DNA from: a virus
Direction: 5' to 3' (one strand)
Virus record (IMG/VR): IMGVR_UViG_3300017971_000190
Coordinates: 124,001-188,000 of that record
Length of the DNA stretch: 64,000 nucleotides
Shown: one piece after another, positions 13,131-64,000 of the stretch
Layout: every line of letters begins with the position of its first letter
How positions within the stretch are numbered: the first letter of the stretch is position 1
Made by a program: the position numbers and the translations under genes
The notes under the pieces: model-generated
What the model saw: only the letters and a program-made list of their open reading frames with translations
Database searches by the model: none
What the model was told of the DNA's origin: nothing

Positions 13131-14639
13131 TTAACCTTGTTGTCCTCTTAACCCAGGTACTATTTCTCTCAAAGCATTAAACACTTGTTCTCTATCAGTT
13201 TTTAGATAATTTGTAAAACCAGGGTTAGCCTCTAAGAATTTAGTTGCTGCGTCTTTATTTTCTTTAATGTAGCGTACAAATGCTTTAGGGTCTTTATCTA
13301 CTAAATCAGCCAATTCTTTCCATTGTTCTTTTTGTTGAACTTCGGGTGCTTTTTCAAATTCTTTCTTCATTCGTTTTGCATACTCATCTACCACTTCTTC
13401 TATATTTTGTTTGGGTTGGCTACGCTCTTGGCTCATCCCAGGATTCGCAGCTTGTTCGAAAAATTTACCAAGGTATACATCTGCCATTACTAAAGCTTTA
13501 GCAAGCTGGGGATTAGTAGTAACATAGGTTTTATCACACAAATCTGCCATACCAGCTTGAAAAAATTTCAAGTTATTTGGAGCACGCACAAAAGAGAATG
13601 CAAATGGGTAAGGAGCATCAATAGTTACTTGAAGGTGTCCATCAGTAGTATAATCAACCAGGTAGTCTCCTTTATATTTTCCATCGGTCAATTTATTAAT
13701 CTGCTGTTCTATCATAGCTTTGGAAGGTTTAAATTGTTTTCCAAGTAAAGCTTGTTTGTATTCCTTAACCATATTGGTCCAAAAAGTAGGATCAATTTGT
13801 TTAACAATTTTTTCAAAATCGGAGGCTTGTTCTTTACTTAAAAATCCATTATCATCTTCAGCAATTTTACGAGCTGCACCTATAGCATTATTTTTATCTT
13901 CGTACAGGGCTTCTGGGTTGTGGTCTAACATAGGTTGAAGAACAACACCCAAAGCCCAATCAATGGCTTCAGCTGTACTTTCCTCTCCTTCAAATTTCAC
14001 ATTCACCGGAGTTTCAGCAGCTGTCGCAGGACGGGTATCAACTTTTTGTAGAGTAGCGATAGATTGAAGCAGTGTGGTTATTTGTTGTGGATTTATTGCA
14101 GCATAGGCTAAACCACAAACCTCAAAAACAACCTCATTTAAACGTGTGTCAGTAGTAGAAAACAAAGTCTCTGGATTATTGATTATGTTTCTAATTTCCT
14201 CTCCCCATTTTGTGCTATAATCAAAGAGAAGAGTTGCCCCCCTGATATTGTTGCTACCAACGTTGACTACAATATCAACACCGTCTTTTTCTACAAAGAG
14301 ACCGTCTTTAATAATTCCATAATTCTGAACACCATTTTCTCTTAATATCTCTTCAGCTGATTTCCACATGCTTTCTACAGCTTTAGGAAGCTCAGCTTGA
14401 TTTAAAGTATTTTTAATTGTTTTAAGTTCTTCTTCAGCGCTTTCTGGAGGAGCTGTCATTTGTTGTTCTTTTTGCTGCTCCTCTTGCTTTTGTTTAACTC
14501 GTTCAATAGCTGGACCTAAATCTAAACCTTTGTTTTCTGGAGCTGCTTCTCCCCCTCCTGGACTCAATTTTTGTTTGAGTTCTTCTGCAGGATTATCTTG
14601 GGCAGTTTTAAACCGCCTCCTGAGTGGTCTAATTTTCAC
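13131..14639 (-). CDS. tagged virion-block protein, 502 aa
   Basis: Begins MKIRPLRRRFKTAQ, the basic-Ala tag typical of this block. A Gln/Glu-rich linker follows (VKQKQEEQQKEQQ), then a large globular region without recognised motifs (VDIVVNVGSNNIRGATLLFD; YLVDYTTDGHLQVTIDAPYP). The C-terminal 100 residues are helical and charged. Probably an internal virion protein, inferred from tag and location. Only 2 bases separate it from the next gene upstream. Confidence 0.55.
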   Translation of the reverse strand: MKIRPLRRRFKTAQDNPAEELKQKLSPGGGEAAPENKGLDLGPAIERVKQKQEEQQKEQQMTAPPESAEEELKTIKNTLNQAELPKAVESMWKSAEEILRENGVQNYGIIKDGLFVEKDGVDIVVNVGSNNIRGATLLFDYSTKWGEEIRNIINNPETLFSTTDTRLNEVVFEVCGLAYAAINPQQITTLLQSIATLQKVDTRPATAAETPVNVKFEGEESTAEAIDWALGVVLQPMLDHNPEALYEDKNNAIGAARKIAEDDNGFLSKEQASDFEKIVKQIDPTFWTNMVKEYKQALLGKQFKPSKAMIEQQINKLTDGKYKGDYLVDYTTDGHLQVTIDAPYPFAFSFVRAPNNLKFFQAGMADLCDKTYVTTNPQLAKALVMADVYLGKFFEQAANPGMSQERSQPKQNIEEVVDEYAKRMKKEFEKAPEVQQKEQWKELADLVDKDPKAFVRYIKENKDAATKFLEANPGFTNYLKTDREQVFNALREIVPGLRGQQG

Positions 14640-14641
14640 GA

Positions 14642-15907
14642 CTAGTCAACTACTTCAGATTTACCAGCAAATTTTTCGAGTTCTTTAATAAGTAAATCTC
14701 TCATTGAAAGACAACGGTCTTTTAAGGTATCTAAGAATTGGAGATAAGCAGTAGAACTTTTTCCTTTAGCCCCACCTTCTACAATTTCAGCTCTGGCATC
14801 ATTAATATTTATGATGGTACCATTAACGTCTGTAAGGTTAGCGAGTACAAATTCTAACATTCCTTCTGGAGATACATTAAATGCTTTAGCTCTAACAATC
14901 TTTTGGTTGGCTTTTTTAATTTCATCACTACGTAAAATGGATGAAGCTACTTTTTCAACATCAACTTCATCAACAGGAATGTCTACTGGTTCAGGATGAT
15001 CATTTCGTCGGTGGTAATAACGAGGGGTACGTACCGGATTAAGCTCGTTTCTTTTTAAGCGGTCTTTCCAGCCTAACACAGCCACATAATCAATCCAACG
15101 GATTGCACACATGAACATGAGAAGGTCTTCCATGTCAGGAGAATCCAGCTCATAATCTTTTTGGAAAATGACAGCAAAGTCTTCTAGTTGCAAACCACTA
15201 CGCCCACCCATCCCAGGCTCGCTAGGAAGTTTAGTATATCGCATATCCTGGTATTGCTGCCAAAAATCTTTAGCTAAGTCTTTTAGTTTTTTAGTGACTT
15301 TACCGGAGAATAATTTAGGGTCTGGTTCAGGCCAGATATCTTTATTTACGTCATGGTAGGGATCCATGGGGTAATTGTAACGTTTAGGCCGCTCTGGACT
15401 ACCATCAGGGTAAATATTTTCGTTTGGATTTCCTTCTGGTTTGTACTGGGTCATATCGTCAAATTCAATGGAGGCTCTATGACGTTGACGACGTATAAAT
15501 TTAGAGCTAGTGCTACTCATTTTTCCACCCTTCTGAAAATTGTAAAAACGCGGGCCTATTGTCCTACGCATGGTGGGTTGGTAAAGGATGTCTACAAGTG
15601 TATTGGGGTAATTTGGATCTGGCGGAAAATAACTATCTGGTAGAGTATTGCGAATTGGTAGCTGATCACGATTGGGACTATCCAATCGTAACATGTCAAC
15701 AGCACTACTAGGAATTTCGTAGTCAGGAGCTTCTTCTAAGGTAATCTTAGATGATTTGGGAAGACTGTAATTTTTAAGTGTATTAAGCTCTGGAAAATAA
15801 AGAGTAATGAGAAGTTTATCACCCTTCTTTTCAGTTGAAACTAAGAGCGCTTCGTGACCTTCTAAATCAATACCTTCGATTTGATTTACAAGTAAGTTAT
15901 CTTTCAT
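14642..15907 (-). CDS. two-part virion-block protein with internal tag, 421 aa
   Basis: The N-terminal part (to about residue 128) has a beta-rich SH3-like start and a Pro-rich region. Then GGKMSSTSSKFIRRQRHRAS occurs inside the frame: a GGGTGG-like ribosome-binding sequence (15525-15532), ATG (15518-15520) and a basic tag ending in RAS. The C-terminal part contains WQQYQDMRYTKLP and FMCAIRWIDYVAVLGW. It looks like two genes joined in frame. No family recognised. Confidence 0.5.
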   Translation of the reverse strand: MKDNLLVNQIEGIDLEGHEALLVSTEKKGDKLLITLYFPELNTLKNYSLPKSSKITLEEAPDYEIPSSAVDMLRLDSPNRDQLPIRNTLPDSYFPPDPNYPNTLVDILYQPTMRRTIGPRFYNFQKGGKMSSTSSKFIRRQRHRASIEFDDMTQYKPEGNPNENIYPDGSPERPKRYNYPMDPYHDVNKDIWPEPDPKLFSGKVTKKLKDLAKDFWQQYQDMRYTKLPSEPGMGGRSGLQLEDFAVIFQKDYELDSPDMEDLLMFMCAIRWIDYVAVLGWKDRLKRNELNPVRTPRYYHRRNDHPEPVDIPVDEVDVEKVASSILRSDEIKKANQKIVRAKAFNVSPEGMLEFVLANLTDVNGTIININDARAEIVEGGAKGKSSTAYLQFLDTLKDRCLSMRDLLIKELEKFAGKSEVVD

Positions 15908-16400: not shown

Positions 16401-16709
16401 CTAGTCATAGTACTCGTCTTCCCGAGCACGAAGACGATTAGCAAACATAGTAAGAGAAGCCACAGAATTATGTACACCTCTAAAATTATCTACAGCTGCA
16501 TCAATACGATCTAATAATTCTCGCGTATTTTCCTTATTTAAATAAGGTGCTCTATCATGTAAGCTTTTTAAAATAACTTCAGCGTCACTAAGATAGGAAG
16601 GGGTGTTTTGGATATAATCTTGAAGTTGTTCAATCATATATTGAATTTGATTTTGTTCAGCCATCCTACGTCTTAGATTAATATTTCCTCTTCTACGTCG
16701 TCTTACCAT
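16401..16709 (-). CDS. tagged small helical protein, 102 aa
   Basis: N terminus MVRRRRRGNINLRRRMAEQ carries two basic clusters. The rest is helical (YMIEQLQDYIQNTPSYLSDA; TRELLDRIDAAVDNF). It may start at the second cluster's Met (RRRMAEQ). Function unknown. Inferred internal virion or core protein. Confidence 0.5.
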   Translation of the reverse strand: MVRRRRRGNINLRRRMAEQNQIQYMIEQLQDYIQNTPSYLSDAEVILKSLHDRAPYLNKENTRELLDRIDAAVDNFRGVHNSVASLTMFANRLRAREDEYYD

Positions 16710-16720: not shown

Positions 16721-17623
16721 CTAGTAATCTTCCATTGCTAGATCTTCTTCTACCGCTTCACGAAGATCTTCTGTGATGTCGTCATCATATACAGCAAAGC
16801 CACGGTCTTCCAAATAATCTTCCAATTCACGACGGCTCCACATGCGGACAGGTTTGTCAACATCATAGTAAGCTGTGCGTCTACGGCGTCTCATACTGCT
16901 TTGCTTATACCTAGTGCGCCAATCTTTCATATACTTCTTAGGAACAAACTCTTCGTAACTTTCAGGTGCAACGTCTACTTCTCTTTCAAAATCATCTCTA
17001 AGTTCTTCAGCAGCAAGTAAACGAATATCTTTAGGGAACATTTCAAACCAGCGAGCACCAGGCCCGCCAAATTCACGTGCATAATCCTTGGCAGCAGATT
17101 CTACGACGTACATAAAAGCTTTTACAGCTAAGTCATGATCGTAATTTCCAGCCGACATTTTGCGAGTTAAGTTCTTCTCAATAGATCGTTTTTGACGGTA
17201 AATAGGTTCTGTATTATCAACCCACATAGTTAATTCACGAGCCACACTCTCGTCACTGTCAAAACCACCGCGTCTACGGCGTCTAGCAGCAAATCGGTTA
17301 CGGTTGCTGATTCTACGTTCTGCACGTCTTCGTCTACGACGAGGAGGACGTAAGCGCCTACCAGCTTCCAGCACAATCTCACCCGGTTGTTTCAGTCCTG
17401 GTTTATCTTTTTCAGGAACAGTGGTGTACTCTTTCCCCCTGCTAGGAGCACCTTTTTCACGGGTGTAATAAGTCTCCTCAATAAAGTCAGGGGCAGTATC
17501 CTTTGGAGGAACTTTGTACTTGGGATTAGCTTCATCTAAAGCTTCAAATCCGCCAGCACTATGACGACGTCTACGACGACGGGGTGAAAAAGGACTGGTT
17601 GTTCTACGACGACGGTGTCTCAT
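16721..17623 (-). CDS. multi-tag protein, 300 aa
   Basis: Four separate basic clusters: MRHRRRRTTSPFSPRRRRRR at the start, RRLRPPRRRRRRAERR (about 90-105), RFAARRRRRGG (about 110-120) and SSMRRRRRTAYYDVD (about 243-257). Between them lie a Pro-rich linker, a helical domain (ELTMWVDNTEPIYRQKRS, AFMYVVESAAKDYAREFG) and an acidic C-terminal module. This is the densest concentration of tags in a small protein, as expected for several short cargo modules fused together. Confidence 0.5.
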   Translation of the reverse strand: MRHRRRRTTSPFSPRRRRRRHSAGGFEALDEANPKYKVPPKDTAPDFIEETYYTREKGAPSRGKEYTTVPEKDKPGLKQPGEIVLEAGRRLRPPRRRRRRAERRISNRNRFAARRRRRGGFDSDESVARELTMWVDNTEPIYRQKRSIEKNLTRKMSAGNYDHDLAVKAFMYVVESAAKDYAREFGGPGARWFEMFPKDIRLLAAEELRDDFEREVDVAPESYEEFVPKKYMKDWRTRYKQSSMRRRRRTAYYDVDKPVRMWSRRELEDYLEDRGFAVYDDDITEDLREAVEEDLAMEDY

Positions 17624-17648: not shown

Positions 17649-17990
17649 TTACAGTCTTGAGATTAATTCTTTACGATCGTACATAAGAAGATCTTGTAAC
17701 ATAGCAGTCATAAATTCGTATAGTTCTCTAGCAATAGTTTGCCCAAAATTTGTTGGTTCGTCATATTCATCAAATATGACATTCAACATTTCTTCATCAT
17801 CAGTAAAATATTCATCAAATATTTTATTGTAAATCATTTTGTCAAACGAAGTGGTATCTTTTATAGTATAAAAATCCTTAATAAGAAGTTGAAAAAGTTG
17901 CAATCTTTCTTCTACGCCTAGTTGTAAAAGTAAATCAACAGCAACTTCAGTTGGACTTTGCGCTAAAGCAAATCGCCTTCTACGCCTCAT
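17649..17990 (-). CDS. tagged protein, 113 aa
   Basis: Starts MRRRRRFALAQSPTEVA. The mature part is hydrophobic/helical then acidic (LLLQLGVEERLQLFQLLIKD, YFTDDEEMLNVIFDEYDEP). The ATG lies inside the end of the upstream gene (11-base overlap). No known family. Confidence 0.5.
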   Translation of the reverse strand: MRRRRRFALAQSPTEVAVDLLLQLGVEERLQLFQLLIKDFYTIKDTTSFDKMIYNKIFDEYFTDDEEMLNVIFDEYDEPTNFGQTIARELYEFMTAMLQDLLMYDRKELISRL

Positions 17991-18752: not shown

Positions 18753-20099
18753 TTAGTAAATCTCATCCTCGTCCATATCAGGGTTCATTTGTCGTACTTC
18801 ATCTAAGTAATCTTCGTAATCAGCTTCAACTTCAGCCCAAGCTGCCTGACCATCTTCAAGAGTATCATAATAAGTTACGTAAACAAAACCTTGGTTGTCT
18901 TCGGCAAGAATTGCAGCCTGAAAAGTCCAATCACCTTCCGGTTGTTTTACTAGCACACCTTCAGGTATTTCAAGCAATTCGTGATAACCAAAACCGTCTG
19001 CACTACCTACTTGCGCACTTCCCCAACCTTCTCCAGACCACTCATAAACTTGTTCATCGATGTTGCTGTTGAATTTACCAATTCCGCTGTAGTTGGGATC
19101 GTAAGTAAGAACTTCAGCAGCAGCTTGACGACGTTTCATTGTTTTTCTTCTTTTAATAGAGGCATCATAATAACCAGTAATTCCTTCCCAACCACCTGCT
19201 TCGTTGTAAGCATCACTCAATGCATCGACTACTTCTCTGTAAGACATATCAAAATCATCATCGTCAATATAATAATTTATAATATAATCTGCACCAAAAT
19301 GAACTGCATGTTGGAATTCAACCCCTTCACTGACTGACTCTCCAACCATTTTAAGTGCCTCTTGGAATGGATCATTTGCAGCTTGACGTTTTGTAGTACC
19401 TGTCATCATTCTACGCAGCTCATCATATACATCTACTTTTTCTCTGTCAACAAAAGCTTGCGCCAACTCTATCCAATCAACGTATCCAAATCCAGCTAAA
19501 TCATAGTTTTGTTTAAAATACTTATCCATATCTTCCCCTAGATATACAACACCTGGAGCGTATTCGTACTCTTCTAATTCAGGGCCAACTTCAATATCTG
19601 CATCTGTAGCAATATTTAAAAGCATATCAAACATTGTTTTTTCGAGTTGTTTATCATTATAAATCTCTTCTAACAGTTTTTTGGTTCCATAACTTGCATC
19701 AGCTTTTCTCTTATGTCGTATAAAAGAAGCTCTCCGTCTAGTTCGTTCCTCATAAACTCCACGAGGGGCTTTTTGCAGTAAATCCTTTATAGGCATGTAT
19801 TGGAAATCATAAAAATCAGGATACTTAAGCCAGGTACCATCTTCCTGCAAAGTAGCTTTAACACTCAGTTCTGCAATCACTGTACCCGTCTTATCTCTCT
19901 TGTAGTCTACAATTTTTCCGTAAGATCTTTCTCCAGTTTTAGGGTGAATAAATTCTACCATTTGTCCCATTTTAAAACCATGTAGCTCTTTAGGACCTAT
20001 TATACCTCGTGGGCCTTTGTATTCTTTTTGAACACGACGCATGTGTTCGCTTTTATCAAAAACAGATCTACGGCTATGGTTATAACGACGATGTCTCAT
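18753..20099 (-). CDS. polyprotein-like virion-block protein, 448 aa
   Basis: Tag-like clusters divide the chain: MRHRRYNHSRRSVF at the start, RTRRRASFIRHKRKADAS (about 120-137), TKRQAANDP (about 238-246) and KRRKTMKRRQAAAEVL (about 317-332). The first module contains a barrel-like segment (FKMGQMVEFIHPKTGERSYG). Later modules are acidic, ending DEDEIY. A weak AGAAG plus ATG (19137-19139) precedes the last cluster. No enzyme motif seen. Confidence 0.5.
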   Translation of the reverse strand: MRHRRYNHSRRSVFDKSEHMRRVQKEYKGPRGIIGPKELHGFKMGQMVEFIHPKTGERSYGKIVDYKRDKTGTVIAELSVKATLQEDGTWLKYPDFYDFQYMPIKDLLQKAPRGVYEERTRRRASFIRHKRKADASYGTKKLLEEIYNDKQLEKTMFDMLLNIATDADIEVGPELEEYEYAPGVVYLGEDMDKYFKQNYDLAGFGYVDWIELAQAFVDREKVDVYDELRRMMTGTTKRQAANDPFQEALKMVGESVSEGVEFQHAVHFGADYIINYYIDDDDFDMSYREVVDALSDAYNEAGGWEGITGYYDASIKRRKTMKRRQAAAEVLTYDPNYSGIGKFNSNIDEQVYEWSGEGWGSAQVGSADGFGYHELLEIPEGVLVKQPEGDWTFQAAILAEDNQGFVYVTYYDTLEDGQAAWAEVEADYEDYLDEVRQMNPDMDEDEIY

Positions 20100-20111: not shown

Positions 20112-20483
20112 CTAAGCGCCCACAGCACTTTTTAGTTCTCTGATTTTTCTGGCTGCATAGGTCTTAGCCCCGTAGCGCCAAAGCAGCCTTAATTCCTGTT
20201 TCAGTGTCTGTCTATCACTTACTACCATTTTTAAAATAGCATATATTTTATTGGTAATAACAGCAGGTTTCATTTTTGCAAGTTCTTCTTTAGACCCTAT
20301 ATTGGCTTTAATAAGAACTAAAGCCAAACCAAGTACCAGTGACAAACTAAGAAAGGATATGTTTTGTTCAATAACTTGGAGGAACAGAGTTTCAACATCT
20401 TTTTGACTAGGCGGTTCTGTCCCTTCTTGCTGCTGCTGTTCTTCATCCCCTTCAGCAGCTTTTTTAAACCGTCTTACTTTCAT
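20112..20483 (-). CDS. tagged membrane-segment protein, 123 aa
   Basis: I take the ATG at 20481-20483, which overlaps the upstream TGA and puts MKVRRFKKAAEG at the N terminus. An ATG 4 codons earlier is possible. A Gln/Glu-rich linker is followed by one hydrophobic helix (FLSLSLVLGLALVLIKANI) and a basic C terminus. A membrane helix behind a virion-type tag could suit a protein that enters the host envelope during DNA ejection (inference). Confidence 0.5.
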   Translation of the reverse strand: MKVRRFKKAAEGDEEQQQQEGTEPPSQKDVETLFLQVIEQNISFLSLSLVLGLALVLIKANIGSKEELAKMKPAVITNKIYAILKMVVSDRQTLKQELRLLWRYGAKTYAARKIRELKSAVGA

Positions 20484-21811
20484 TTTATTTTCCAATTTTT
20501 GTGAAGAGAGGAGAATTTACGCTGACTGGCCAGCCAACGCTTTTTCGTTGTAGGGTCTCCCAAATCTGGAATTAAAATGTCATTTCCATCTTTGAGACTG
20601 GGAGGAACAAATCCTTCTTTCAAAAGCTTTTTCAATTTAGCTGCTCCCTTATTTTTTTGAGGAGCAGCTTTCTTTTTTAGAATTTTAGCCACTCGTCCAT
20701 AAGGGATTATTTCAGCAGGAGCTTTAGTGGGGCGAAACAATACAGCTGTTTCGTTAGTGTGATTAGCCACAATAATTTTAGAACAAGAGCTGTTGGCAAT
20801 AACTGCAAAATGGTCATCTTCAAAAGTGTCAGGAATATTCTCTACTGCCCAAATAATGCTAGCTTCTTTCAGAAATTGAGAATTGACTTCTTTTACAGAA
20901 CCACCTCTTTTACTGATTTGAATTGCTTGCTCTTGTTTGCGCGCGTGTTCTTCATCAGGGTGACGCCCTAATAATTTAGTAGGATCTTTTTTGCTGTAGA
21001 GACAAACCCGTTGTTCACTCTTAGGACGTTTTGGGTCAATATCTTTTTGTCTACAAGGTTTAATAGTAGCAATTCTTGGTCTTCTAAAACGTTTCACTCT
21101 TGCCTCCTTTTCACCCGTAGGCAAAGATTCATCATCTAAAGCCAACATAAGGTCACTAGCATCTTCTAACAGTTCAGGAACTATATCTTCGTGTTCTCCT
21201 GGTAAATCTTCCAAGTCTCTCAAAATTTCAATGGCTTCATTTACTTTTTCAGCAGCCTCACCAAATTGTTCTTCCACCGTAACACTCAGTCTAACTTTAG
21301 GAAAGTCTGGACTGTGAATATAATCTACTTCGTAAGGTTTAACCAATTTTTCAATTTCAAACAATTGATCTGGGTCAATGTAAGTAGAACCAAAAGTTCT
21401 AATTGAAATACCGTAATCCCCAGAGGGTAAATTGGCAATTCCAAGGACTGTGTTAGGAGGAATAAATGGAGTATGTTTTAATTCTTTAATTAGTTTTTTA
21501 ATTTCCCATTGCTCAGGACTAAAAGCTAAACGAGCTTCTTTTTTAGCTTCCTCTTCAACACCTAAATCTTTTTCCATTTTTGCCAGACCAATATAGTAGT
21601 CTGGACTTTCCATAAGATGAACCCAAGCTATTTTACCTGTTAGATTTGGATCATCTTTAGTAACATTAACACGTTCATCTACTTTAGAACCGTGTTCCAG
21701 TTCAACTTCTAAACCTTTTAAAAATTCTTCAGCTGGAAAAGGACTGGTGTCCCAATCAATTCCAATATCTTCTCCAATTTTAATTGCATCTTCAAGAGTG
21801 AAAGTAAGCAT
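20480..21811 (-). CDS. DUF5661-domain fusion protein, 443 aa
   Basis: Residues 4-85 match DUF5661: FTLEDAIKIGEDIGIDWDTS, VELEHGSKVDERVNVTKDDP and GKIAWVHLMESPDYY. A tag-like KRFRRPRIAT (about 240-249) separates a second module with CLYSKKDPTKLLGRHPDEEH, a short motif I have seen in other phage multidomain proteins. The C terminus is Lys-rich. DUF5661 has no known function. The fusion around a basic-Ala junction follows the pattern of the block. Confidence 0.65.
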   Translation of the reverse strand: MLTFTLEDAIKIGEDIGIDWDTSPFPAEEFLKGLEVELEHGSKVDERVNVTKDDPNLTGKIAWVHLMESPDYYIGLAKMEKDLGVEEEAKKEARLAFSPEQWEIKKLIKELKHTPFIPPNTVLGIANLPSGDYGISIRTFGSTYIDPDQLFEIEKLVKPYEVDYIHSPDFPKVRLSVTVEEQFGEAAEKVNEAIEILRDLEDLPGEHEDIVPELLEDASDLMLALDDESLPTGEKEARVKRFRRPRIATIKPCRQKDIDPKRPKSEQRVCLYSKKDPTKLLGRHPDEEHARKQEQAIQISKRGGSVKEVNSQFLKEASIIWAVENIPDTFEDDHFAVIANSSCSKIIVANHTNETAVLFRPTKAPAEIIPYGRVAKILKKKAAPQKNKGAAKLKKLLKEGFVPPSLKDGNDILIPDLGDPTTKKRWLASQRKFSSLHKNWKIK

Positions 21812-29114: not shown

Positions 29115-31967
29115 TTACGGCCAATAAATAAAATGGCCAACAGTTATTAAATTCTTTATCAAGTCTCCTATAAAATTTTCATTACTGTAATCAAGATAAT
29201 CAAGGTAATCAGAAGCTAATTCATTCCACGCAAATACATCATTATCATCACAGAGCTGATCTTCAATAATGTCAGTATCTTGGCCACTTTCTTCAACTTC
29301 ATCTGCAACAATAGAACGACGAACTAATTTTACTCTTTTTTTCAGCTCTTTCTCACTAACAGCATAGATTTCAACCAACGGAGTATCATCACCATAACGG
29401 TCACACCAATCAATATTGGCAACGTAGACTTTTTCTGGTTGAGCTGTTCTTCTACGTTTAACTCTACCCATAATAGCACTTGGGGGATATTCAACTCCGT
29501 AGGGACTTACACGTGCAATAAGTTTACCATTTACACCGTTAACATAGAAACCAATAATGTCATCACTTACAGCTGCTTCGTAAAAAGGTTTATTTCCTAC
29601 AGTATGAAAATAGTCAAATTCATCATCCCACCGTTCTAGACTAGGGTAAAATAATTCATCAATGATAGCCATTGCCATTTGCCAAACAGCTGGACCTCGT
29701 TTGAGGTTTAGCATGTAGGCAATAGCTTCTCCAATTTCATTTTCTGGTTTCATTGCTTTTCTTACCCTTCCCTTAACTAAATAACTACTCCCCATGGTAA
29801 CACTGTGTGGAAAAATAACACTAAAAGGAACAACATGAGCAACTAACCTGTTGTTTCTGTAGAATTGTATACTTTCATCGGTGACTTCAGCATACCAGTG
29901 AATATTGGCAGGATAAAACTGTCCTAACCCAATGTATGTTTCTCCAAATTCACCGCTGTCTTCCCAAGAAAACATTTCGTCTAAAATGGTTTCAGCAGCT
30001 CGCCAAACAGCTGGACCACGTTTAAGTCCCAACATGAAATCAATTGCAGAGGCAATTTCATCTTCTTGAGGCATTGCTTTCCTCACTTTCGCAGTGGTTA
30101 CCTCAAATGAACCTCTATTCCAACTGACTGTTCCAATCAGTTTAGAACCCTTGTAGATTTTAAATTTGTAACCTGGATAATTCTCTGCTAATATGGTAGC
30201 TTCATCGTGGGCTTCTTCTTCAGTCCTAGCAGGATTATAAACTTTAAGCTCCCCATTTTCAACTCTGTAAGGTTCGTCTCTATAATGTCTACCTTTTGCC
30301 ATTTTGGTTTGTCCTTTCATACTATCTAAATACTGTTTAAATACCCAAGCAATTTCATTTTTAACATTAATATTTCTATAGGTTCTTCTTCCTGTAATAG
30401 GTTTAGTAATTTCAAAACGAGGAGCACCAGCTTTTGCTCTAATTTTAAACTCTAACCAATCTTCTTTTGTAGCTGCATTCCATTTACGTTTAATACTCAC
30501 ATCTAATCCACTATGTTCATCTTCCCACGTAACCCAACCTTCCCAATGATCACTTCCGTCTTTGTACCCATCTATTTTAACACTTTCAACTACACGTCCT
30601 TTTGCAACTTCTTCTTGTAACCAAGTAGCATTTTTCATTTCTGGAAATATAGTAGATAAAGTGTTTAAAGCATTTTGATCTTGAATGATAATACTATAAT
30701 AACCAGGATTTGATTTTGATGGTTTAATTCCCCAAGAAACTGCTAAATGAGTTTTAGACTGTTTTGTTTTTCCTTCAGCTATAGTGCGATGTACCAGTAA
30801 ATCAGCTTCTTCAGCTAATTCAATACAAACACCATCATCTACCCCTTTTTGATCTCTAATGGCAGCATGAATTTCATCCAACTTTTCTAAAAAGGGAAAT
30901 TCGTACATCAGTTCTTCAACAAAAATTTCAGCACCCTGACAGTCAGAAATACGGTCAGCAGATTCATAACTGAAAAATCTTTTGTCAGCAGGATTTACTT
31001 CTACAGCTTTAATTATAGCCTTTTTATTTTTGCTAGAAATCCAATCAATTAAGTCGTAAATGGTTTCTTCTTGCTCCGGAGAGAATTTCCACTTGCTGCC
31101 TACATTCTTCTCTGCCCACTTTCTAGCACTTCCTTCACCCAGTTCTTCAGCCATGGCAGACCAATCAGCTACCATTTCAGCTAAATCAATAAGCTCCATG
31201 TCTGTAGGAGAGCTGTGAGCTTCTGGGTGATGTAAGTTACGATGAACGTGTTTATCACTAGCGTCAGAGGCTAAATCATACTGAGCTTGCAAATCAGAAG
31301 GTACAGAATCTTCTTCATTTTTAACGCGGTAGTACTCTGTAATCCAAATATAAGGTAATACTAGCTCTGAATCACTGTATTTGTCTTTATCGTGCTCTCT
31401 AGCTCGCTTAGCAAGTTCAGAACTTTCCAATCCAGGAAAGCCTTTCAACTTTTTCATATACTTGCTTACGCGATTAATATGCTCTTGGGTTCTTTGTTTA
31501 AAGAACGAAACCATTTCTGGATTGGGTTTTTTAAAATTGGACATTTTAGCCTGGTATCTTTTATTGATGTGTCTTTGGGGCCATTCAAAATCTCTTTCGC
31601 TGTGACCAAAGTAACGAACCTCAACAGGTACATCACCTAAACCAGCTTGTATAGCTGCTTTAATGCGGTGGTTACCTTCATAGACGAACGCTTTTGGTTC
31701 TCCACTTACCCACTCTACTACAATAAAGACTGGGTTAAGAATACCTTGACGTTTGACGTTTTCTACAAATTTTTTCCAAGCTGCTTCGGGATAATTACCA
31801 AAGTACCTCTCCCCATTTTCGTAGTGCCAATCTCTTCTTTCACCTTTTTTACCGAGAATTTGTGCAGCTATAATGAGTGGTAGAGTTCCTTTTTCTTTCT
31901 TAGTAATGTGATTATTATCTTGGTATCTTCCCTCTCCCTCAAATGTAGTTTTAAGATTGGGAGTCAT
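29115..31967 (-). CDS. ParB-like/DUF5662/tandem-repeat polyprotein, 950 aa
   Basis: Residues about 20-135 are ParB-like (FVYEGNHRIKAAIQAGLGDV, ending in a basic NKRYQAK junction). A DUF5662-like domain follows from MSNFKKPNPEMVSFFKQRTQ with REHDKDKYSDSE and HHPEAHSS. A module with DCQGAEIFVEELMYEFPF is shared with the protein at 38963-40981. After MKGQTKMAKGRHYR come two tandem copies of a roughly 105-residue domain, each starting (K/R)VRKAM and containing LKRGPAVW. Finally VKRRRTAQPEK introduces the last module. Internal ATGs with AGG/AAAGGA sequences lie at 31542-31544 and 30300-30302. Confidence 0.6.
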   Translation of the reverse strand: MTPNLKTTFEGEGRYQDNNHITKKEKGTLPLIIAAQILGKKGERRDWHYENGERYFGNYPEAAWKKFVENVKRQGILNPVFIVVEWVSGEPKAFVYEGNHRIKAAIQAGLGDVPVEVRYFGHSERDFEWPQRHINKRYQAKMSNFKKPNPEMVSFFKQRTQEHINRVSKYMKKLKGFPGLESSELAKRAREHDKDKYSDSELVLPYIWITEYYRVKNEEDSVPSDLQAQYDLASDASDKHVHRNLHHPEAHSSPTDMELIDLAEMVADWSAMAEELGEGSARKWAEKNVGSKWKFSPEQEETIYDLIDWISSKNKKAIIKAVEVNPADKRFFSYESADRISDCQGAEIFVEELMYEFPFLEKLDEIHAAIRDQKGVDDGVCIELAEEADLLVHRTIAEGKTKQSKTHLAVSWGIKPSKSNPGYYSIIIQDQNALNTLSTIFPEMKNATWLQEEVAKGRVVESVKIDGYKDGSDHWEGWVTWEDEHSGLDVSIKRKWNAATKEDWLEFKIRAKAGAPRFEITKPITGRRTYRNINVKNEIAWVFKQYLDSMKGQTKMAKGRHYRDEPYRVENGELKVYNPARTEEEAHDEATILAENYPGYKFKIYKGSKLIGTVSWNRGSFEVTTAKVRKAMPQEDEIASAIDFMLGLKRGPAVWRAAETILDEMFSWEDSGEFGETYIGLGQFYPANIHWYAEVTDESIQFYRNNRLVAHVVPFSVIFPHSVTMGSSYLVKGRVRKAMKPENEIGEAIAYMLNLKRGPAVWQMAMAIIDELFYPSLERWDDEFDYFHTVGNKPFYEAAVSDDIIGFYVNGVNGKLIARVSPYGVEYPPSAIMGRVKRRRTAQPEKVYVANIDWCDRYGDDTPLVEIYAVSEKELKKRVKLVRRSIVADEVEESGQDTDIIEDQLCDDNDVFAWNELASDYLDYLDYSNENFIGDLIKNLITVGHFIYWP
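29452..30089 (-). repeat. tandem duplication of a ~105-residue domain
   Basis: Two successive copies, from KVRKAM (30089-30072) and RVRKAM (29768-29751), share the pattern VRKAM..E.EI..AI..ML.LKRGPAVW..A..I.DE.F and a later FY.N...(L/I)..V.P. The copies have diverged at the protein level, so the duplication is not recent. Each copy carries its own basic-Ala junction. Confidence 0.7.
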
Positions 31968-35110: not shown

Positions 35111-35144
35111 TTTCCTGATTGTCCCTTCAATTGCGATAGCCATG

Positions 35145-44012: not shown

Positions 44013-44282
44013 TTAGTCTCCGTAAACACCCACCAAACGATACTCGGTTATGGTTACTAAATTACCGTGATAAAGAAGATCGTTTTTCCTACCTGTTGGT
44101 TCTGCCTCTAAGCCGTAGCCTTGATTTTCACCAAAATAATTTTCATCAAACCAGATCACACTTTGAAGCTCTCTTGCAACACTGTAAGGGTCTTCCAATT
44201 CATCTTCTTTAACCCAAAAGGTTGTTCCTTCAGATAAACGAGCTTTTGTAGCTGCTACTCTACGGCGTCTTCGTTTTAGCAT
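44013..44282 (-). CDS. tagged small protein, 89 aa
   Basis: MLKRRRRRVAATKARLSEGT, then a domain of about 70 residues (VARELQSVIWFDENYFGENQ; NLVTITEYRLVGVYGD). TAGGAG precedes the ATG. A free-standing example of the tagged modules seen in the polyproteins. Confidence 0.55.
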   Translation of the reverse strand: MLKRRRRRVAATKARLSEGTTFWVKEDELEDPYSVARELQSVIWFDENYFGENQGYGLEAEPTGRKNDLLYHGNLVTITEYRLVGVYGD

Positions 44283-44309: not shown

Positions 44310-44663
44310 TTATGGCATATCTAAGTACGCCCAACCTTTACTATCAAGTTCGTCTTCTATTTCTTTTTGTGAAAGGATTAACCCTTCTCTGCTTCCAACA
44401 TCACGTAGTAGTTGTTTTAAATCCGTTATTGGTTGTTCTCCAGACCACTTAACCTTAAAGTTTTCTTCATCGCCTAAATCTGTATGACTAAAAATTGCCG
44501 CTATGCCAATAGCATCGTCAATTGCTTCTTGTAGTTGTCTTGAGTTTATCGCTACTATTTCAAATACGTAAGGTTTAGATTTATCTTTCGAGGTAAATAC
44601 TTCTAAATAAGTGTAAACATATGTATATTCAGCAGCCATTCTGCGTCGTCTTCGTCTTAACAT
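44310..44663 (-). CDS. tagged small protein, 117 aa
   Basis: MLRRRRRRMAAEYTYVYTYL is nearly identical in its first 11 residues to the next tagged protein downstream. The body is alpha/beta (YLEVFTSKDKSKPYVFEIVA). AAAGGAGACAGTGCC precedes the ATG. No family. Confidence 0.55.
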   Translation of the reverse strand: MLRRRRRRMAAEYTYVYTYLEVFTSKDKSKPYVFEIVAINSRQLQEAIDDAIGIAAIFSHTDLGDEENFKVKWSGEQPITDLKQLLRDVGSREGLILSQKEIEDELDSKGWAYLDMP

Positions 44664-45017: not shown

Positions 45018-45236
45018 TTATCCCTGAGAACACCAAACAGAACCGTTACCGTCTTCATCAGCGTCCATCCAAACCTCACCAAAGGCTTCACTGGCTTCAG
45101 TTAGCTGTGTGGCTTGAGGTTCAGACCAGTCACCAGCTTCATCTAAAAATTCATCAAACAGGTAACGAAGTTGTGCACTAGCTTCAAAGGGAGAAACAGC
45201 AGCTAATCGTCTTCTACGTCTATGTCGTCTTAGCAT
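45018..45236 (-). CDS. tagged small protein with a GDWxxP/EASEAF module, 72 aa
   Basis: MLRRHRRRRRLAAVSPFEAS begins at 45236 after GAAAAGGAACTGTC. The body, AGDWSEPQATQLTEASEAF, matches the C terminus of the next gene upstream (DGDWPDPLDRQMYEASEAF), so the small protein is a detached copy of that terminal module. Family function unknown. Confidence 0.55.
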   Translation of the reverse strand: MLRRHRRRRRLAAVSPFEASAQLRYLFDEFLDEAGDWSEPQATQLTEASEAFGEVWMDADEDGNGSVWCSQG

Positions 45237-45277: not shown

Positions 45278-46882
45278 TTAACAAGCTACACCCCCTTCAC
45301 CAGAAGAGTGTCCATAAAGATCCATTTCAAAAGCCTCACTAGCTTCGTACATTTGTCGGTCTAATGGATCTGGCCAATCACCATCCATGAAGCCAGCTCC
45401 CGTACCTTGGGCGGTCATAGCAAAATCGTGACCTGCATCAGCAGGACTTCCGGCTTCCATAATTGCATCACCAAAATGAATCCAAAATTCGGCGCAGTTT
45501 TCTTCCATCTGGCTATAACAATCATTATCAATATCATTGGAACCGAAAACAGAATCCATTGGAACACCTTCATCATCGCCATAAGCAGTACTAACAAATA
45601 ACAAACCTTCTACGTAAGCATCAAAGAATTCTTTAAAAGCAGCATCTTGTTCTTTACCACGCAAGGAACTAGGTTTCGGTTTATATCGACCATGCTGCGC
45701 TATAATGGCTTTAGTATTGCGGAGCAGTTTTTCGATACGATTTAATTCTTCATCGGATGTATCGTCTTCTAACCCTTGTGTGTACCTTACTAACCATCTT
45801 TCCAAAGTCGATTCTAAAGCATTCAATTCGTCAATAGAAGCTTTAGTTCGTCCAAGATCTTGTGGCCGGTGCGATACTAATCTAGAACCAAGAGCATAAA
45901 CTGGATCGCTCTGTCCACTATGGAACCACAAAATAACTTCGGGATCTAATTGAGTAGAAGTGACAGGAATAAAATAATCAGAACCTAAATCACCAGCTTT
46001 TCGTTTTCGGTCAAAAGGGCGACGGGTACCTTTCCTTTCTTTTTTGGCAACTGGAAAATATCGTTTAGCCCACTTTTCCAAATCAGCAGCAGAAACTTCT
46101 TGAACCACAGCGTAGTCTTTGGTCAGTTTCTTAGCCAAAACTACTTGAGCTTTTTGCATGTAACGGAAAGCAGCCTGAGCTGTTTTAATACCTTTTCTCC
46201 TCAGCTTGCTCACACCACCTGTGACTTTAACCAGATCTTTAATTTCCAATTCGGCTTCTTTAGCCACTTCACCCTTCTTAAGCCTTACTGGTTTTTTGCT
46301 TTTCCAGCGACGAGGACCCTTTTTAAATCCTGCTTCCCCTTCTCCCATAAGGTCTTCAAAACCAACTTCCCCCTCACCTTCAGCAGGAGCAGCTTCCTCA
46401 CCTTCAGCAGGTGCTTCCTCCTCTGGTTCAGCTACCGGCTCCTCTTCTACCTCTTCCACTTCTTCTACACCAAAGAGTTCGTCATCACTTTCAGAAGAAT
46501 CTTCTTCTGTGCTTTGAATAAATTCAGCAGCAGCACTGCTAGCTAAATCTTCTAAAGAATCACTTATTTCTCCCATACCCTCTTTCATGACAGACTGAAC
46601 AACCTCTTTAATGAACTCACCAAAGTGTTTGGCTGCCTCTTCCTTACCTCTTCTTCCTAACTCGTCACCAATTTCTTCAGTGAGATCGTCAATAGCGGTT
46701 TGGAAAATCTCTTTTAGACCGTCTTTAATGGTGAGCACACTATTGCTGTACAACTTAGTACCAGCAGCGTTGAATAGTGAAGTCAAATCTGGCCCCATGC
46801 GGCGTTCCAATTTGCTACTTACGCTACCAGGTTGGGTGCTATCAGCTGCTTTTCTCAAAGTGGTTTTGGTTTTTCGTGCCAT
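45278..46882 (-). CDS. virion-block fusion with GHDF...GxGAGF module, 534 aa
   Basis: N terminus MARKTKTTLRKAADSTQ has the tag. The first module is helical and ends in a highly acidic Glu/Pro/Ala tract (EEPVAEPEEEAPAEGEEAAP, residues about 145-175). Junctions SKLRRKGIKTAQAAF and FDRKRKAGDLGSDYF follow. The C-terminal module includes MEENCAEFW, AGHDFAMTAQGTGAGF and GDWPDPLDRQMYEASEAF. This resembles a widespread phage domain with GHDFWLTRNGHGAGFWD, here with several core residues changed. Function of that domain is unknown. Confidence 0.55.
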   Translation of the reverse strand: MARKTKTTLRKAADSTQPGSVSSKLERRMGPDLTSLFNAAGTKLYSNSVLTIKDGLKEIFQTAIDDLTEEIGDELGRRGKEEAAKHFGEFIKEVVQSVMKEGMGEISDSLEDLASSAAAEFIQSTEEDSSESDDELFGVEEVEEVEEEPVAEPEEEAPAEGEEAAPAEGEGEVGFEDLMGEGEAGFKKGPRRWKSKKPVRLKKGEVAKEAELEIKDLVKVTGGVSKLRRKGIKTAQAAFRYMQKAQVVLAKKLTKDYAVVQEVSAADLEKWAKRYFPVAKKERKGTRRPFDRKRKAGDLGSDYFIPVTSTQLDPEVILWFHSGQSDPVYALGSRLVSHRPQDLGRTKASIDELNALESTLERWLVRYTQGLEDDTSDEELNRIEKLLRNTKAIIAQHGRYKPKPSSLRGKEQDAAFKEFFDAYVEGLLFVSTAYGDDEGVPMDSVFGSNDIDNDCYSQMEENCAEFWIHFGDAIMEAGSPADAGHDFAMTAQGTGAGFMDGDWPDPLDRQMYEASEAFEMDLYGHSSGEGGVAC

Positions 46883-51210: not shown

Positions 51211-53049
51211 TTACTTACCCGTTTTACGTTTAAACGCATCGTAACCAACGGTAAGGGCGCTAGCAGTGCGATTAGAAAGACGACCCTTCATACGCTGACG
51301 CCAGTAATTGGGATCCCACTTCCTACCGCTAGCAGTACGTTCTTCTGTTTCATCAACAACAGGAGTACCATGACCTGTGGTAATGGGAACAGAGCGGGGC
51401 ATTTGCCTGTTTTGCTGGACGGAGGCGGCAACGGGAATTGCTTCTTCCTCAGCAGCGTAGCCGGGGTGACGCCATTCCATGCTAGCGATTTCAGCAGTGT
51501 GGTGAGCCATTACGTCTTGAGGTGCACCTAACAGCTCATCAGCTTTGTTAATAAGCATTTCGAGGTAGGAAGCCCCACTCTTACGGAAAGCGCCTTCTAT
51601 TTTATTAACACACGTATTGGTGTCAATACCAAGGCTGTTAAACTGGTTAACGAGAGCTTCTTTAAGAGCATTCTCACCCCAATAATTCTTAACAGAGCCT
51701 TCAGCGACAACAGCCATGATATTCATGAACTCGTCTTTGAGGTCTGCCAGGGTAGCACGGCGCTCAGCTTGAATTTCTTCAGCTAACTGAGCCCTAACCT
51801 CAGAAGCAATCTCGTTTTCGTAAGCAGCTGTGGCATAGAAACGAGCGTTTACACTTTTAAGAGTCTCCTCAACACCAAACGTAGTAAAGCCTTCTTTAAT
51901 GCGGTCAATGTAGCTCGGTTTGAAGAATAGACCCTTAAACTCATTAGTAAGGTCAGTGTCAGAAAGGTGAATTTCTGCTACCGGATGACCCATAGCGAAA
52001 ATAGCGTAGAGGGGGTCCTCTTTGAACAATTCGTAATTCTCGTCTTCAGGATTAACCCCAAAAGGAATGAAATCGAAACGAGCATTTTTAAGAGATTTTA
52101 AGTCACGTGTATTGTACACTCTCTCCATAAGAGGTTTACCAGCTTCTGTAGGACCACAACCCTCTTCGTCTTCAGCTCCACATTCTTTAGAAGAAGCTGT
52201 TTCACCCTCGCTCTCTTCTTCTCCCTCTTCGCCTTCTTTGCCCTCTTCTTCCTTTTCTTCTTCCTCTTCTTCTTCATCTTCCTCTTCACCATCTTCAACA
52301 GGAACACACTTCATTTCCTGTCCCTCAGGGCAGCCACCTTCTTCCTCTTCACCTTCCATACCCTCTTCTTCTTCAAGTTCGAGGCCCTCTAAATCTAAAT
52401 CATCTAGATTTAGATCTTCAAACTCGAATCCCATTTCCTCAGCAGGCTCGTCTTCATCTTCTTCCGCTTTGCGACGGCGGTCAAAAATGGGATGACGAGG
52501 TTTGTCTTCACTAAAACGACGGCGACGGCGACGAGAGAAAGGACTCTCATCATCTTCCTGTGCACGGCGACGGCGACGAGGAGAACGTAAGTCCTCATCA
52601 TCGAGATACAGGTTTTCAGAGGTCCGACTACGACGACGAGGAGGCGTTGGAAGCCGATCTGCTAAACGGGAGCGGCGAGTTCTACGTTTTCTAAGACTCA
52701 TGGTTCTTTTTCCTTTACCGGCAAAATTTGCGGTAGGTTGATTTATTGCTTGCTCGTCAATCAACTCTTCACTAAGAGAACCTGGTGAGGTTTTTTCATT
52801 AAGTAAGAGTCGATAAGCTTTTGGGTGTTTGAATTTAAGCATCTGCAATATTACGTCTGCACGTTCGGGATCTACTGCAGATACCTCTTTAATGAATTCT
52901 TTAAGGTCTAAGATAGCTAAATCTTCGGCTAGTTGATCACATTTTCGCCAAAGCTTGTTATCATCAACCTTTAAATGTGGTGACGGTGCTCTCGCACGGG
53001 GAGGTGGTATTTCACCTACCCTCTTTCTAATTTTCCTTTTTCTCGACAT
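51211..53049 (-). CDS. prohead core (scaffold) protein with multiple basic clusters
   Basis: Start chosen at MSRKRKIRKRVGEIPPPRA (53049), after TTAGGAGAAGAC. After a 120-residue helical part, an embedded AAAGGA and ATG (52699-52701) precede MSLRKRRTRRSRLADRLP and five basic clusters within about 85 residues (PPRRRSRTS, SPRRRRRAQ, SRRRRRRFS, DRRRKAE). A Glu/Asp tract of some 100 residues follows, then a helical C-terminal half. Acidic/helical composition and location next to the protease and portal match phage core proteins such as T4 gp22. The clusters resemble the cargo tags, suggesting a shared assembly or cleavage signal. Confidence 0.62.
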   Translation of the reverse strand: MSRKRKIRKRVGEIPPPRARAPSPHLKVDDNKLWRKCDQLAEDLAILDLKEFIKEVSAVDPERADVILQMLKFKHPKAYRLLLNEKTSPGSLSEELIDEQAINQPTANFAGKGKRTMSLRKRRTRRSRLADRLPTPPRRRSRTSENLYLDDEDLRSPRRRRRAQEDDESPFSRRRRRRFSEDKPRHPIFDRRRKAEEDEDEPAEEMGFEFEDLNLDDLDLEGLELEEEEGMEGEEEEGGCPEGQEMKCVPVEDGEEEDEEEEEEEKEEEGKEGEEGEEESEGETASSKECGAEDEEGCGPTEAGKPLMERVYNTRDLKSLKNARFDFIPFGVNPEDENYELFKEDPLYAIFAMGHPVAEIHLSDTDLTNEFKGLFFKPSYIDRIKEGFTTFGVEETLKSVNARFYATAAYENEIASEVRAQLAEEIQAERRATLADLKDEFMNIMAVVAEGSVKNYWGENALKEALVNQFNSLGIDTNTCVNKIEGAFRKSGASYLEMLINKADELLGAPQDVMAHHTAEIASMEWRHPGYAAEEEAIPVAASVQQNRQMPRSVPITTGHGTPVVDETEERTASGRKWDPNYWRQRMKGRLSNRTASALTVGYDAFKRKTGK

Positions 53050-53131: not shown

Positions 53132-53329
53132 TTATAGTAAAACTCCCAATTGTTTGAGAGCATTTCTTATTTTGTAATAAGGGCTATCAGCAAGTAATTT
53201 TTTTCGAGCTACATCTATTTTTTCATTGGTTGCTAAAACATGGAGAATTTCTGCTTGTTCTCCAATAAAATCCCAAAGGCGATCTTCTGTCGTCTTTGCT
53301 GTTACTTTTTTAACTCTTCGTACTCTCAC
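53132..53329 (-). CDS. tagged small protein, 65 aa
   Basis: MRVRRVKKVTAKTTEDRLWD starts with the tag. The remaining 50 residues are helical (FIGEQAEILHVLATNEKIDV). Six bases separate it from the next gene upstream. Possibly a core accessory protein by location. Confidence 0.5.
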   Translation of the reverse strand: MRVRRVKKVTAKTTEDRLWDFIGEQAEILHVLATNEKIDVARKKLLADSPYYKIRNALKQLGVLL

Positions 53330-53897: not shown

Positions 53898-54278
53898 CTA
53901 GTCAAAAGAAAGAGTAATTGGTTCTACAAGCTCTCCATCAGCTATATAAGCTCTAAATACAATAGGAGCTTCACCGAATTCGTCTAAAATAGAAAGTGGC
54001 CTACCTTCAGGAAACTTCAAAAAACCTTTAATGTTGAAACCAGATTCAGGTCCCCCATAGTCACTTTCCAATTCGGTCCCTATGAGAGTAACAGGAGTAC
54101 CGTATTGAGTTTGCAGCACTCTAATAATAAGCTGTTCAAATTCTTTCCAGTTGGCTTGAGGACTGTCTTCAAACTTGTCCACTAATTCTTCTTCAGTGGG
54201 GCCTTCTTCTGGAGGATCTTGTGCTATTTTAATTCTCTTGTAACGTAGAGAACCGATAGCTATATTTTCTTTTGACAT
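53898..54278 (-). CDS. tagged protein adjacent to portal, 126 aa
   Basis: MSKENIAIGSLRYKRIKIAQ contains the tag (RYKRIKIAQDPPEE) about 10 residues in. The body is alpha/beta (FEQLIIRVLQTQYGTPVTLI; FNIKGFLKFPEGRPLSILDE). Six bases downstream of the portal gene. No family. Confidence 0.5.
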   Translation of the reverse strand: MSKENIAIGSLRYKRIKIAQDPPEEGPTEEELVDKFEDSPQANWKEFEQLIIRVLQTQYGTPVTLIGTELESDYGGPESGFNIKGFLKFPEGRPLSILDEFGEAPIVFRAYIADGELVEPITLSFD

Positions 54279-60952: not shown

Positions 60953-60983
60953 CCATCCTCTCTTATAGAATAACTTAAAAGTG

Positions 60984-62015: not shown

Positions 62016-62112
62016 GGTAAAGTATTCCTTTCTTCCTTACGGTTACGATTGTTTTCCCTTTACAAAAGGAGGGAGTTAAACTGTGAAGGGAAAAGGTGAG
62101 AACAGAACGTTC

Positions 62113-62796: not shown

Positions 62797-62805
62797 GAAA
62801 ATCCC

Positions 62806-63177
62806 TTAGAACATGTGACTAGGCAGCTTCATACCAAGTGCGTGAGCTGCTTTGAAAATGTTGTTACGCATGAGGGAGAGACCCCACCGATCGCCATTTT
62901 CAATTACAGATCTCATGCGATTAAATGCTTCTAGTTCATTTCTGGTTAACTCGAATTTATTGTAGAAGTACTCATAAACTTTATTTAACAATTCAACAGA
63001 CTGTTCATCTTTATCTAAAACATCAACAGTATCCACATACGCAGTTACATCTACAAGGGCTTCGATAGCACTTTCAGCTCTTCGTTGCCTAGCAGCTAAA
63101 CGTGAGCGACGAATACGTTTACGTCGCCTCCAGGAAGAATTATTTTTTGCCAATCTTGGTCGTCTGCGTTTTAACAT
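62806..63177 (-). CDS. tagged small helical protein, 123 aa
   Basis: Start placed at MLKRRRPRLAKNNSS (63177), preceded by AAGGAGATACTC, which the longer frame would read as KEILM. A second cluster RRRKRIRRSRLAARQRRAES follows. The body is helical and acidic (YVDTVDVLDKDEQSVELLNK). No family. Confidence 0.55.
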   Translation of the reverse strand: MLKRRRPRLAKNNSSWRRRKRIRRSRLAARQRRAESAIEALVDVTAYVDTVDVLDKDEQSVELLNKVYEYFYNKFELTRNELEAFNRMRSVIENGDRWGLSLMRNNIFKAAHALGMKLPSHMF

Positions 63178-63187
63178 GAGTATCTCC

Positions 63188-64000
63188 TTAAAGTTCTTCG
63201 CCTTCGTAACCATGAAGGTAATTTCTTAGTTCATACATATCTTCTTCATCTGCAAAGAAAACAAGAGCTAGCCTACCTGTGTCTTCATCCAAAGTAATTT
63301 CGTAACTTCCAGCTGGGAGTTCGCTGTAACCACTGTTCATAGGCATAACAATATAACGGGTAAGGGCACTTTGTAAATCTTCTTCACTGGCTTCAGAACC
63401 CAACTTTTTACGTAAATCGTAGTGTTTGACTACAGTCCAAAACTCTTCATCACTAGCGTTGGCAGGTAAAATTTCGTCTACCTCAAATTCCATAGAGTCA
63501 GCTTCGCCTTCATAGGCGTCACTGTAATTGAGGTGGTTAAGTACGTGGCCATCGAAAACAGCTACGTCGTCTTGGAGATCGTAACGAGCCATAATCTTCC
63601 TCCGTTTGAAAGAGGCTTCCATTTCCCACGGAATAGGTTTAACAGGCTTCTTTTTACGACGACGTTTTCTTTGTTTTAGAGCTTTATCTGTAACAGGCCA
63701 CAACGTTTTCTTCTCTAAAGCCAACTCAAAAATATCAGCAATAATTTTGTCGTGAAGATACCATTTATCATTTTTATCATAACCTTCTTCCAAACGCTCT
63801 TTAGCAAGTCTATTAGACGTATCCTTATTTCGTCTAAGGTCATTAAAATCTCTATGTGCTGCTAACCAAGCAGCTCTTTCATCTATTTGCTGTTCGGTTA
63901 AATCAACAGGCATAATATCGCCATGAGGCATATGAGGTTTATCGTACCAATCAACTGGTCTCTCATTGTCAATTATACGTGCTTTTTTTCGGAAAGTAGA
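63188..64000 (-). CDS. fused virion-block protein, N terminus beyond the window
   Basis: The frame stays open from 63931 to the window edge (upstream codons read DNERPVDWYDKPH), so the gene is probably 5'-truncated here. An N-terminal helical part with RKRRRKKKPVKPIPWE is followed by EASFKRRKIMARYDLQDD. GGAGG (63599-63603) and an ATG (63590-63592) lie in frame at this point, the strongest embedded ribosome-binding site in the window. The C-terminal module is acidic (GEADSMEFEVDEILPANASD). No family. Confidence 0.5.
   Translation of the reverse strand, partial: STFRKKARIIDNERPVDWYDKPHMPHGDIMPVDLTEQQIDERAAWLAAHRDFNDLRRNKDTSNRLAKERLEEGYDKNDKWYLHDKIIADIFELALEKKTLWPVTDKALKQRKRRRKKKPVKPIPWEMEASFKRRKIMARYDLQDDVAVFDGHVLNHLNYSDAYEGEADSMEFEVDEILPANASDEEFWTVVKHYDLRKKLGSEASEEDLQSALTRYIVMPMNSGYSELPAGSYEITLDEDTGRLALVFFADEEDMYELRNYLHGYEGEEL

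Follow-up and report, generated by a model that had tools for sequence, protein, structure and literature searches.

The capsid-targeting sequence of phage T4 is a peptide of 10-19 residues on IPI, IPII, IPIII and Alt, and is processed by gp21 (PMC9026906). For the jumbo phages phiKZ and SPN3US, the propeptides of inner-body and ejection proteins are mostly 100 residues or longer and are cut after motifs ending in Glu, and a short tag common to many cargo proteins has not been described for them (PMC5694885, PMC10052503). In phage P1, N-terminal residues of the head-internal defence protein DarB are sufficient for loading of a reporter (PMC9024508); this signal lies between 9 and 30 residues and belongs to one protein, not to many. 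Here we describe an Arg/Lys-rich peptide ending in a hydrophobic residue and Ala, carried at the N terminus by 16 proteins of the head block of virus record IMGVR_UViG_3300017971_000190 (221,679 bp). The stretch analysed (hereafter the window) is 64,000 nucleotides long and corresponds to bases 124001-188000 of this record; coordinates are those of the window unless given as genome positions, and the head block lies on its minus strand.

Gene calling over the entire record gave 278 genes, 54 in the block from 13131 to 62806 and 224 in the rest. Of the 54 block genes, 12 encode at least four Arg within residues 2-13, as does one of the 224 others (Fisher p=1.1e-8); basic residues followed by hydrophobic-Ala were found at the N terminus for 16 and 10 genes, respectively (p=6e-7). 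A stricter motif, at least four Arg within the nine residues ahead of hydrophobic-Ala, stood at the N terminus for 12 block genes and for no other gene of the record. Three or more Arg were found at 15 block N termini, against 2.3 expected at random internal positions of block proteins. The peptide is thus a label confined to the head block and not spread evenly over the genome; the genes at 4832-12471 indeed lack it, as the preliminary description of this DNA had stated. The number of members, given there as some two dozen, stands in a loose sense only: with no Ala ending required, about 23 N termini count as Arg-rich, but 16 show the basic run, the hydrophobic residue and Ala. The seven or so additional Arg-rich N termini belong to genes 16721, 18753, 21817, 35862, 44680, 51211 and 54285. 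Outside the window, the sole further long Arg run at a gene start was MTLRRRRRRIRT, at genome 27611-28147 (plus strand; L005:8611-9147), the product of which gave no convincing family match.

The proteins behind the tag are unrelated. After removal of the first 19 residues from 17 tagged proteins, comparison revealed a single weak relationship, a 40-residue match between 45018 and 45278, in agreement with what had been proposed; homology past the N-terminal peptide, as in a paralogous family, was not found, and with almost no homology beyond the tags a recent duplication was ruled out. Pfam and PHROGs searches with the tagged proteins of this phage gave no family at a convincing score. Arg codon usage of the tags was ordinary (AGA 45% versus 37% in the genome, CGT 24% versus 28%), indicating that the signal resides in the protein and not in purine-rich DNA; an artefact of purine-rich DNA or of ribosome binding was ruled out on this ground. 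By inspection, the tags mostly precede polar or charged sequence, with no long hydrophobic stretch, and do not have the make-up of Sec or Tat signal peptides. Pairing of N termini de novo within this phage gave a modest excess (248 pairs versus 159-182 for the null), because Arg runs pair with Lys-rich starts as well; the Arg-count test is the clearer one.

Among named viruses, those nearest to this phage are jumbo phages, for instance Motura, Lu11, PaBG, BcepSauron, JA29, NCTB and RSL1, with head protein identities of about 25-32%. A nucleotide search against known phages gave zero matches, single-query searches of IMG/VR with the capsid, terminase or portal protein did not find close relatives, and distant relatives in IMG/VR were reached by a capsid profile only. 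Shared tags within each relative were sought by all-against-all comparison of N termini with no motif set beforehand, a procedure which, applied to T4, recovered the known tag MKTYQEFIAE plus a variant. Six relatives or more were found to have a short peptide at the N terminus of several unrelated proteins; it differs from phage to phage, and the genes so tagged lie near those for portal, protease, capsid or terminase. In Achromobacter phage Motura, 16 proteins begin with M-x-I-Q-A-x-x-R-L-x-A, and 15 of these lie at genome 112891 to 145187; Pseudomonas phage Lu11 carries MKIQLAVA on 13, with 12 at 154-170 kb, past the terminase (141-144 kb). MxILVSLSA was found on seven proteins of Dickeya phage JA29 (115 kb of genome covered), MKIQLNAAxRLLA on 15 of the 77 genes covered of the metagenomic relative G014, and MKIKISLSA on 12 genes of another, G011, mostly between protease and portal. 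Six proteins of the relative G003 and four of BcepSauron were tagged, and an RSL1-like record showed several starts of the MYDIKAAVxRL type. Since the tag patterns were defined after inspection of the sequences, internal counts serve as controls: tags of the relatives are almost strictly N-terminal, Motura having two internal copies among some 60,000 residues. Without the tag, 15 families were represented among 17 pattern hits for Motura, 10 among 11 for G011, seven among seven for JA29 and 12 among 15 for Lu11, two of these last hits being probably false. The occurrence of such tags across the lineage had not been noted in the preliminary description. The Arg-rich motif itself, for which a search of related jumbo phages had been suggested there, was not seen in these relatives: Motura, Lu11, JA29, RSL1 and the metagenomic relatives have the same kind of feature, each with its own sequence, and none of those examined is Arg-rich. 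The case for a common function therefore comes from where the tags stand, from their being shared and from the gene context, not from sequence. As a separate observation, candidate tags of the record G001 (81,907 bp, L194-L198) start with MR(K/R)V, for example MRKVVLAATP and MRRVTLSSVETAAVA, and may represent a form lying between the hydrophobic tags and the Arg-rich one.

Some cargo of the relatives appears, as judged from domain matches, to be of a kind injected by phages. A tagged 225-residue protein of JA29 has an ADP-ribosyltransferase domain (ART-PolyVal, E=2e-27), a tagged 561-residue protein of Lu11 has a topoisomerase I core (E=2e-12), and a 150-residue Lu11 protein gave a weak ADP-ribosyltransferase match. 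Among T4 proteins, Alt, which enters the host, is an ADP-ribosyltransferase and bears a short propeptide at its N terminus (PMC9026906, PMC5694885). A particular cargo start, W..L..QK.Y...HP.SKYA, was found behind MKLNAAHRLLA in G014, behind MKIQIALS in G011 and behind other leaders in NCTB and BcepSauron, as one would predict for a sorting label that can be exchanged.

The prohead protease that the preliminary description had placed in the same block is indeed encoded there, at 50249-51100 (minus strand). It matched the PHROG head maturation protease family (E=2e-38), and His155 and Ser208 are invariant across 21 homologues. The predicted model was good over the core (mean predicted local distance difference test score 77.9); the closest solved structure was T4 gp21, a weak match (E=0.09), and the best matches among predicted viral structures were proteins of PaBG and RSL1 together with several annotated prohead proteases. 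A sequence search of the PDB with this protein found no relative. The protein is thus a candidate active enzyme, and would be the one to process the tags. Gel analysis of PaBG indicated that some of its virion proteins are proteolytically processed (PMC7412058).

We consider it probable (about 0.7) that the tag is a phage-specific signal for prohead loading and processing, working by analogy like the T4 capsid-targeting sequence. Late in infection, the basic N-terminal run would dock the cargo onto the prohead core or scaffold and so bring unrelated proteins inside the head; the co-encoded protease would then cut at the conserved hydrophobic-Ala boundary, and the mature cargo, freed by this cut, would be injected along with the DNA. 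Each phage of the Motura/RSL1/Lu11/PaBG/JA29 jumbo group would have its own tag, the Arg-rich form being that of the phage described here. Presence of the tagged proteins in the virion is indicated indirectly, by the position of their genes in the head block and by the cargo families seen in the relatives. The likeness to T4 is in the short N-terminal peptide common to otherwise different proteins, in the prohead protease of the same phage, and in the ADP-ribosyltransferase among the tagged cargo of JA29. The differences are that the tag has no similarity to MKTYQEFIAE, is Arg-rich, ends in basic-hydrophobic-Ala and not in (Leu/Ile)-x-Glu, is carried by 16 proteins as against the handful of T4, and has internal copies. 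Because the T4 sequence and its Glu-containing cut site were looked for and not found, the tag is not classed as a T4 capsid-targeting sequence. With phiKZ and SPN3US, which have many head-internal proteins, the present phage shares jumbo size and a prohead protease, but its tags are short, with an Ala boundary, and long propeptides were not found. The proposal of T4-like targeting in the preliminary description thus holds well as an analogy, in view of the equivalent tags in at least six relatives, but neither the T4 site nor propeptides of the phiKZ/SPN3US type were matched.

Several points weigh against this reading. The tag lacks the Glu that the proteases of T4, phiKZ and SPN3US prefer ahead of the cut. 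The capsid protein and the protease are without the motif, and proteins of this sort are usually processed as well. Tags of the relatives examined are not Arg-rich, PaBG and NCTB gave few candidate tags only, and the tag patterns were written post hoc. No mass spectrometry or fusion results on the tags of the relatives were found in the literature searched. Nor was a description of these tags found there, most subscription papers lying outside the search; within this scope, the Arg-rich form would be a variant not seen before.

The coordinates listed in the preliminary description mark the low end of each gene; as these genes are on the minus strand, the tag is to be read at the high end. All ten peptides listed there are present, that of 44013 reading MLKRRRRRVAA and not MLRRRRRRVAA. 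Tags are about 8-23 residues long up to the Ala boundary, marked below by a slash, and Glu follows Ala in a few only (RMAE, KAAE). All are on the minus strand. Gene 13131-14639 encodes a 502-residue protein starting with MKIRPLRRRFKTA/Q (14601..14639; GTG start), and gene 16401-16709 a 102-residue protein starting with MVRRRRRGNINLRRRMA/E (16659..16709). The 300-residue protein of 16721-17623 has a double Arg-rich N terminus, MRHRRRRTTSPFSPRRRRRRHSA (17555..17623), and several more Arg-rich repeats inside. MRRRRRFALA/Q (17961..17990) heads the 113-residue protein of 17649-17990, and MKVRRFKKAA/E (20454..20483) the 123-residue protein of 20112-20483. A 382-residue protein (31969-33117; GTG start) begins with MKIRKLRIA/Q (33091..33117). 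For the 294-residue protein of 34259-35143, with (MAIAIEGTIRK)MKNRRHLA/S at 35087..35143, the start is ambiguous between 35143 and 35110. MRKRRQAL/G (35376..35399) is carried by the 84-residue product of 35145-35399, MKIKVGSKTYIKKTA/Q (35816..35860) by the 151-residue product of 35405-35860, and MLRRSRRRHLA/L (42114..42146) by the 93-residue product of 41865-42146. Four tagged genes then lie close together: 44013-44282 (89 residues; MLKRRRRRVAA/T, 44250..44282), 44310-44663 (117 residues; MLRRRRRRMAA/E, 44631..44663), 45018-45236 (72 residues; MLRRHRRRRRLAA/V, 45198..45236) and 45278-46882 (534 residues; MARKTKTTLRKAA/D, 46844..46882). The remaining tags are MRVRRVKKVTA/K (53297..53329) of a 65-residue protein (53132-53329; GTG start), MSKENIAIGSLRYKRIKIA/Q (54222..54278) of a 126-residue protein (53898-54278), and MLKRRRPRLA/K (63148..63177) of a 123-residue protein (62806-63177), in which a second copy, RRRKRIRRSRLA/A, follows. 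For 44310, 45018, 62806, 41865 and 20112, the longest open frame allows an earlier start than the tag Met; most of these Met codons are preceded by a Shine-Dalgarno-like sequence at correct spacing. The major head protein (22172-23311, minus strand), the prohead protease and the terminase large subunit (57133-59463, minus strand) are all untagged, indicating that the tag marks a subset of the block. The portal protein (54285-56603, minus strand) has an Arg-rich N terminus that does not match the strict tag.

The same motif was also detected inside nine larger block proteins, a feature absent from the preliminary description, whereas the remaining 47,902 residues of the proteome contain one copy (p=4e-5). 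These copies, again on the minus strand, are MLRRRRRKVA/V at residues 410-419 of the 491-residue protein 37202-38677 (37421..37450), MLRRRHRFA/V at residues 134-142 of the 277-residue protein 35862-36695 (36270..36296), FRRRRRRLA/G ending at residue 349 of the 672-residue protein 38963-40981 (39935..39964), MRRRRRTA/Y ending at residue 251 of 16721-17623 (16871..16894), LRRRRKAA/F ending at residue 449 of the 609-residue protein 42181-44010 (42664..42690), GRVKRRRTA/Q ending at residue 842 of the 950-residue protein 29115-31967 (29442..29468), VKRFRRPRIA/T ending at residue 248 of the 443-residue protein 20480-21811 (21068..21097), RRKTMKRRQAA/A ending at residue 327 of the 448-residue protein 18753-20099 (19119..19148), and RRTRRSRLA/D ending at residue 130 of the 612-residue protein 51211-53049 (52660..52686). 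The last is followed by more Arg-rich repeats, the blocks being RRSRLAD, RRRRRAQEDDE, RRRRRRFSED and RRRKAEEDED. Some copies look exactly like N-terminal tags, as AMLRRRRRKVA/VRYEYEDV in 37202 and SMLRRRHRFA/VLNPSDV in 35862; AGGAG is located 8 nucleotides upstream of the internal Met in 37202, so that an internal start is possible there.

The excess of internal copies in the block suggests a protease site. Together with the protease gene within the block and the processing of PaBG virion proteins, it is also what would be expected if the tag were a recognition site only, used for removal of a propeptide or cutting of a polyprotein, with the cargo loaded by other means. We regard this explanation as rather unlikely, since tags of the relatives are almost strictly N-terminal, as a targeting signal would be, and cutting alone hardly explains why a dozen small, unrelated proteins should begin with a common tag. 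For a loading and processing signal, the internal copies would be additional cut sites or fused tagged modules acted on by the same protease; they would suit either, without proving it. We tentatively propose, at somewhat less than even odds, that heads in this jumbo lineage are loaded by phage-specific tags, with as many as 16 unrelated cargo proteins sharing one tag, and that, in the present phage, the tag also serves inside proteins as a polyprotein cut site from which fused modules are freed in the prohead.

The Arg-rich peptides could instead be uncleaved DNA-binding arms, which let head proteins retain or condense the packaged DNA and, through this binding, enter the head. The tag charge of +4 to +11 in front of mostly acidic or neutral proteins, and the internal Arg-rich stretches in 16721 and 51211, would fit such a role. 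This is nevertheless unlikely, because tags of the relatives in the same genomic setting are nearly uncharged (MKIQLAVA in Lu11, MEILVSISA in JA29), because DNA binding does not need the conserved hydrophobic-Ala end, and because the tags are N-terminal on unrelated proteins. Basic N-terminal peptides are able to target proteins inside cells, and the tag might direct proteins to the membrane, the nucleoid or a phage replication compartment of the infected cell and not to the capsid. Such a role is improbable given the confinement of the tags to the head block, the location of those in the relatives beside portal, protease, capsid or terminase genes, and the lack of a hydrophobic signal core. 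Chance, composition or recent duplication is hardly credible. In its favour, block proteins have a slightly higher Arg content (6.0% versus 4.6%); against it stand the N-terminal Arg runs (Fisher p=1.1e-8; 15 versus 2.3 expected within the block), the ordinary codon usage, and the lack of homology behind the tags apart from one 40-residue match.

Other genes of the record were noted in passing. A second virion protein is encoded at 23342-24148 in the head block. Two more proteins resemble the major head protein, at genome 205024-206025 and 65763-66479 (both plus strand, outside the window; loci L002 and L003), the similarity covering parts of them at 28% identity (E=4e-25) and 35% identity (E=9e-8), respectively, and the phage may thus possess three capsid-protein paralogues. 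Among proteins with internal copies, 29115-31967 and 20480-21811 (both minus strand, no N-terminal tag) contain a DUF5662 (E=2e-22) and a DUF5661 (E=1e-12) domain, respectively; a 100-residue domain of 29115 is repeated at the start of 38963 (37% identity), and 51211-53049 (minus strand) matched weakly to a PHROG ATPase family (E=3e-5). An untagged 923-residue protein, 26342-29113 (minus strand), begins with MRSPRIQYHSSPTNRLESILSKGL, resembling the YHGT start of ADP-ribosyltransferases. It gave no convincing Pfam match, folding of this start (MRSPRIQYHSSPTNRL) without an alignment gave a poor model, and no claim is drawn from it. Shortly past the head block, a patatin-like phospholipase (Pfam E=2e-18) is encoded at genome 192324-193220 (minus strand; locus L011:12324-13220).

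Head-carried, injected proteins of jumbo phages are known by proteomics for few phages only. If loading is indeed what the tags signal, the set of proteins injected by this lineage, including many short orphan proteins for which nothing else hints at a function, would become readable from sequence, and the packed and injected proteins of such phages could probably be guessed in this way. Short capsid targeting in the style of T4 would then not be peculiar to T4-like phages; the signal would change from phage to phage with persistence of the cargo domains, and the tags would provide new modular means for protein loading into large phage heads.

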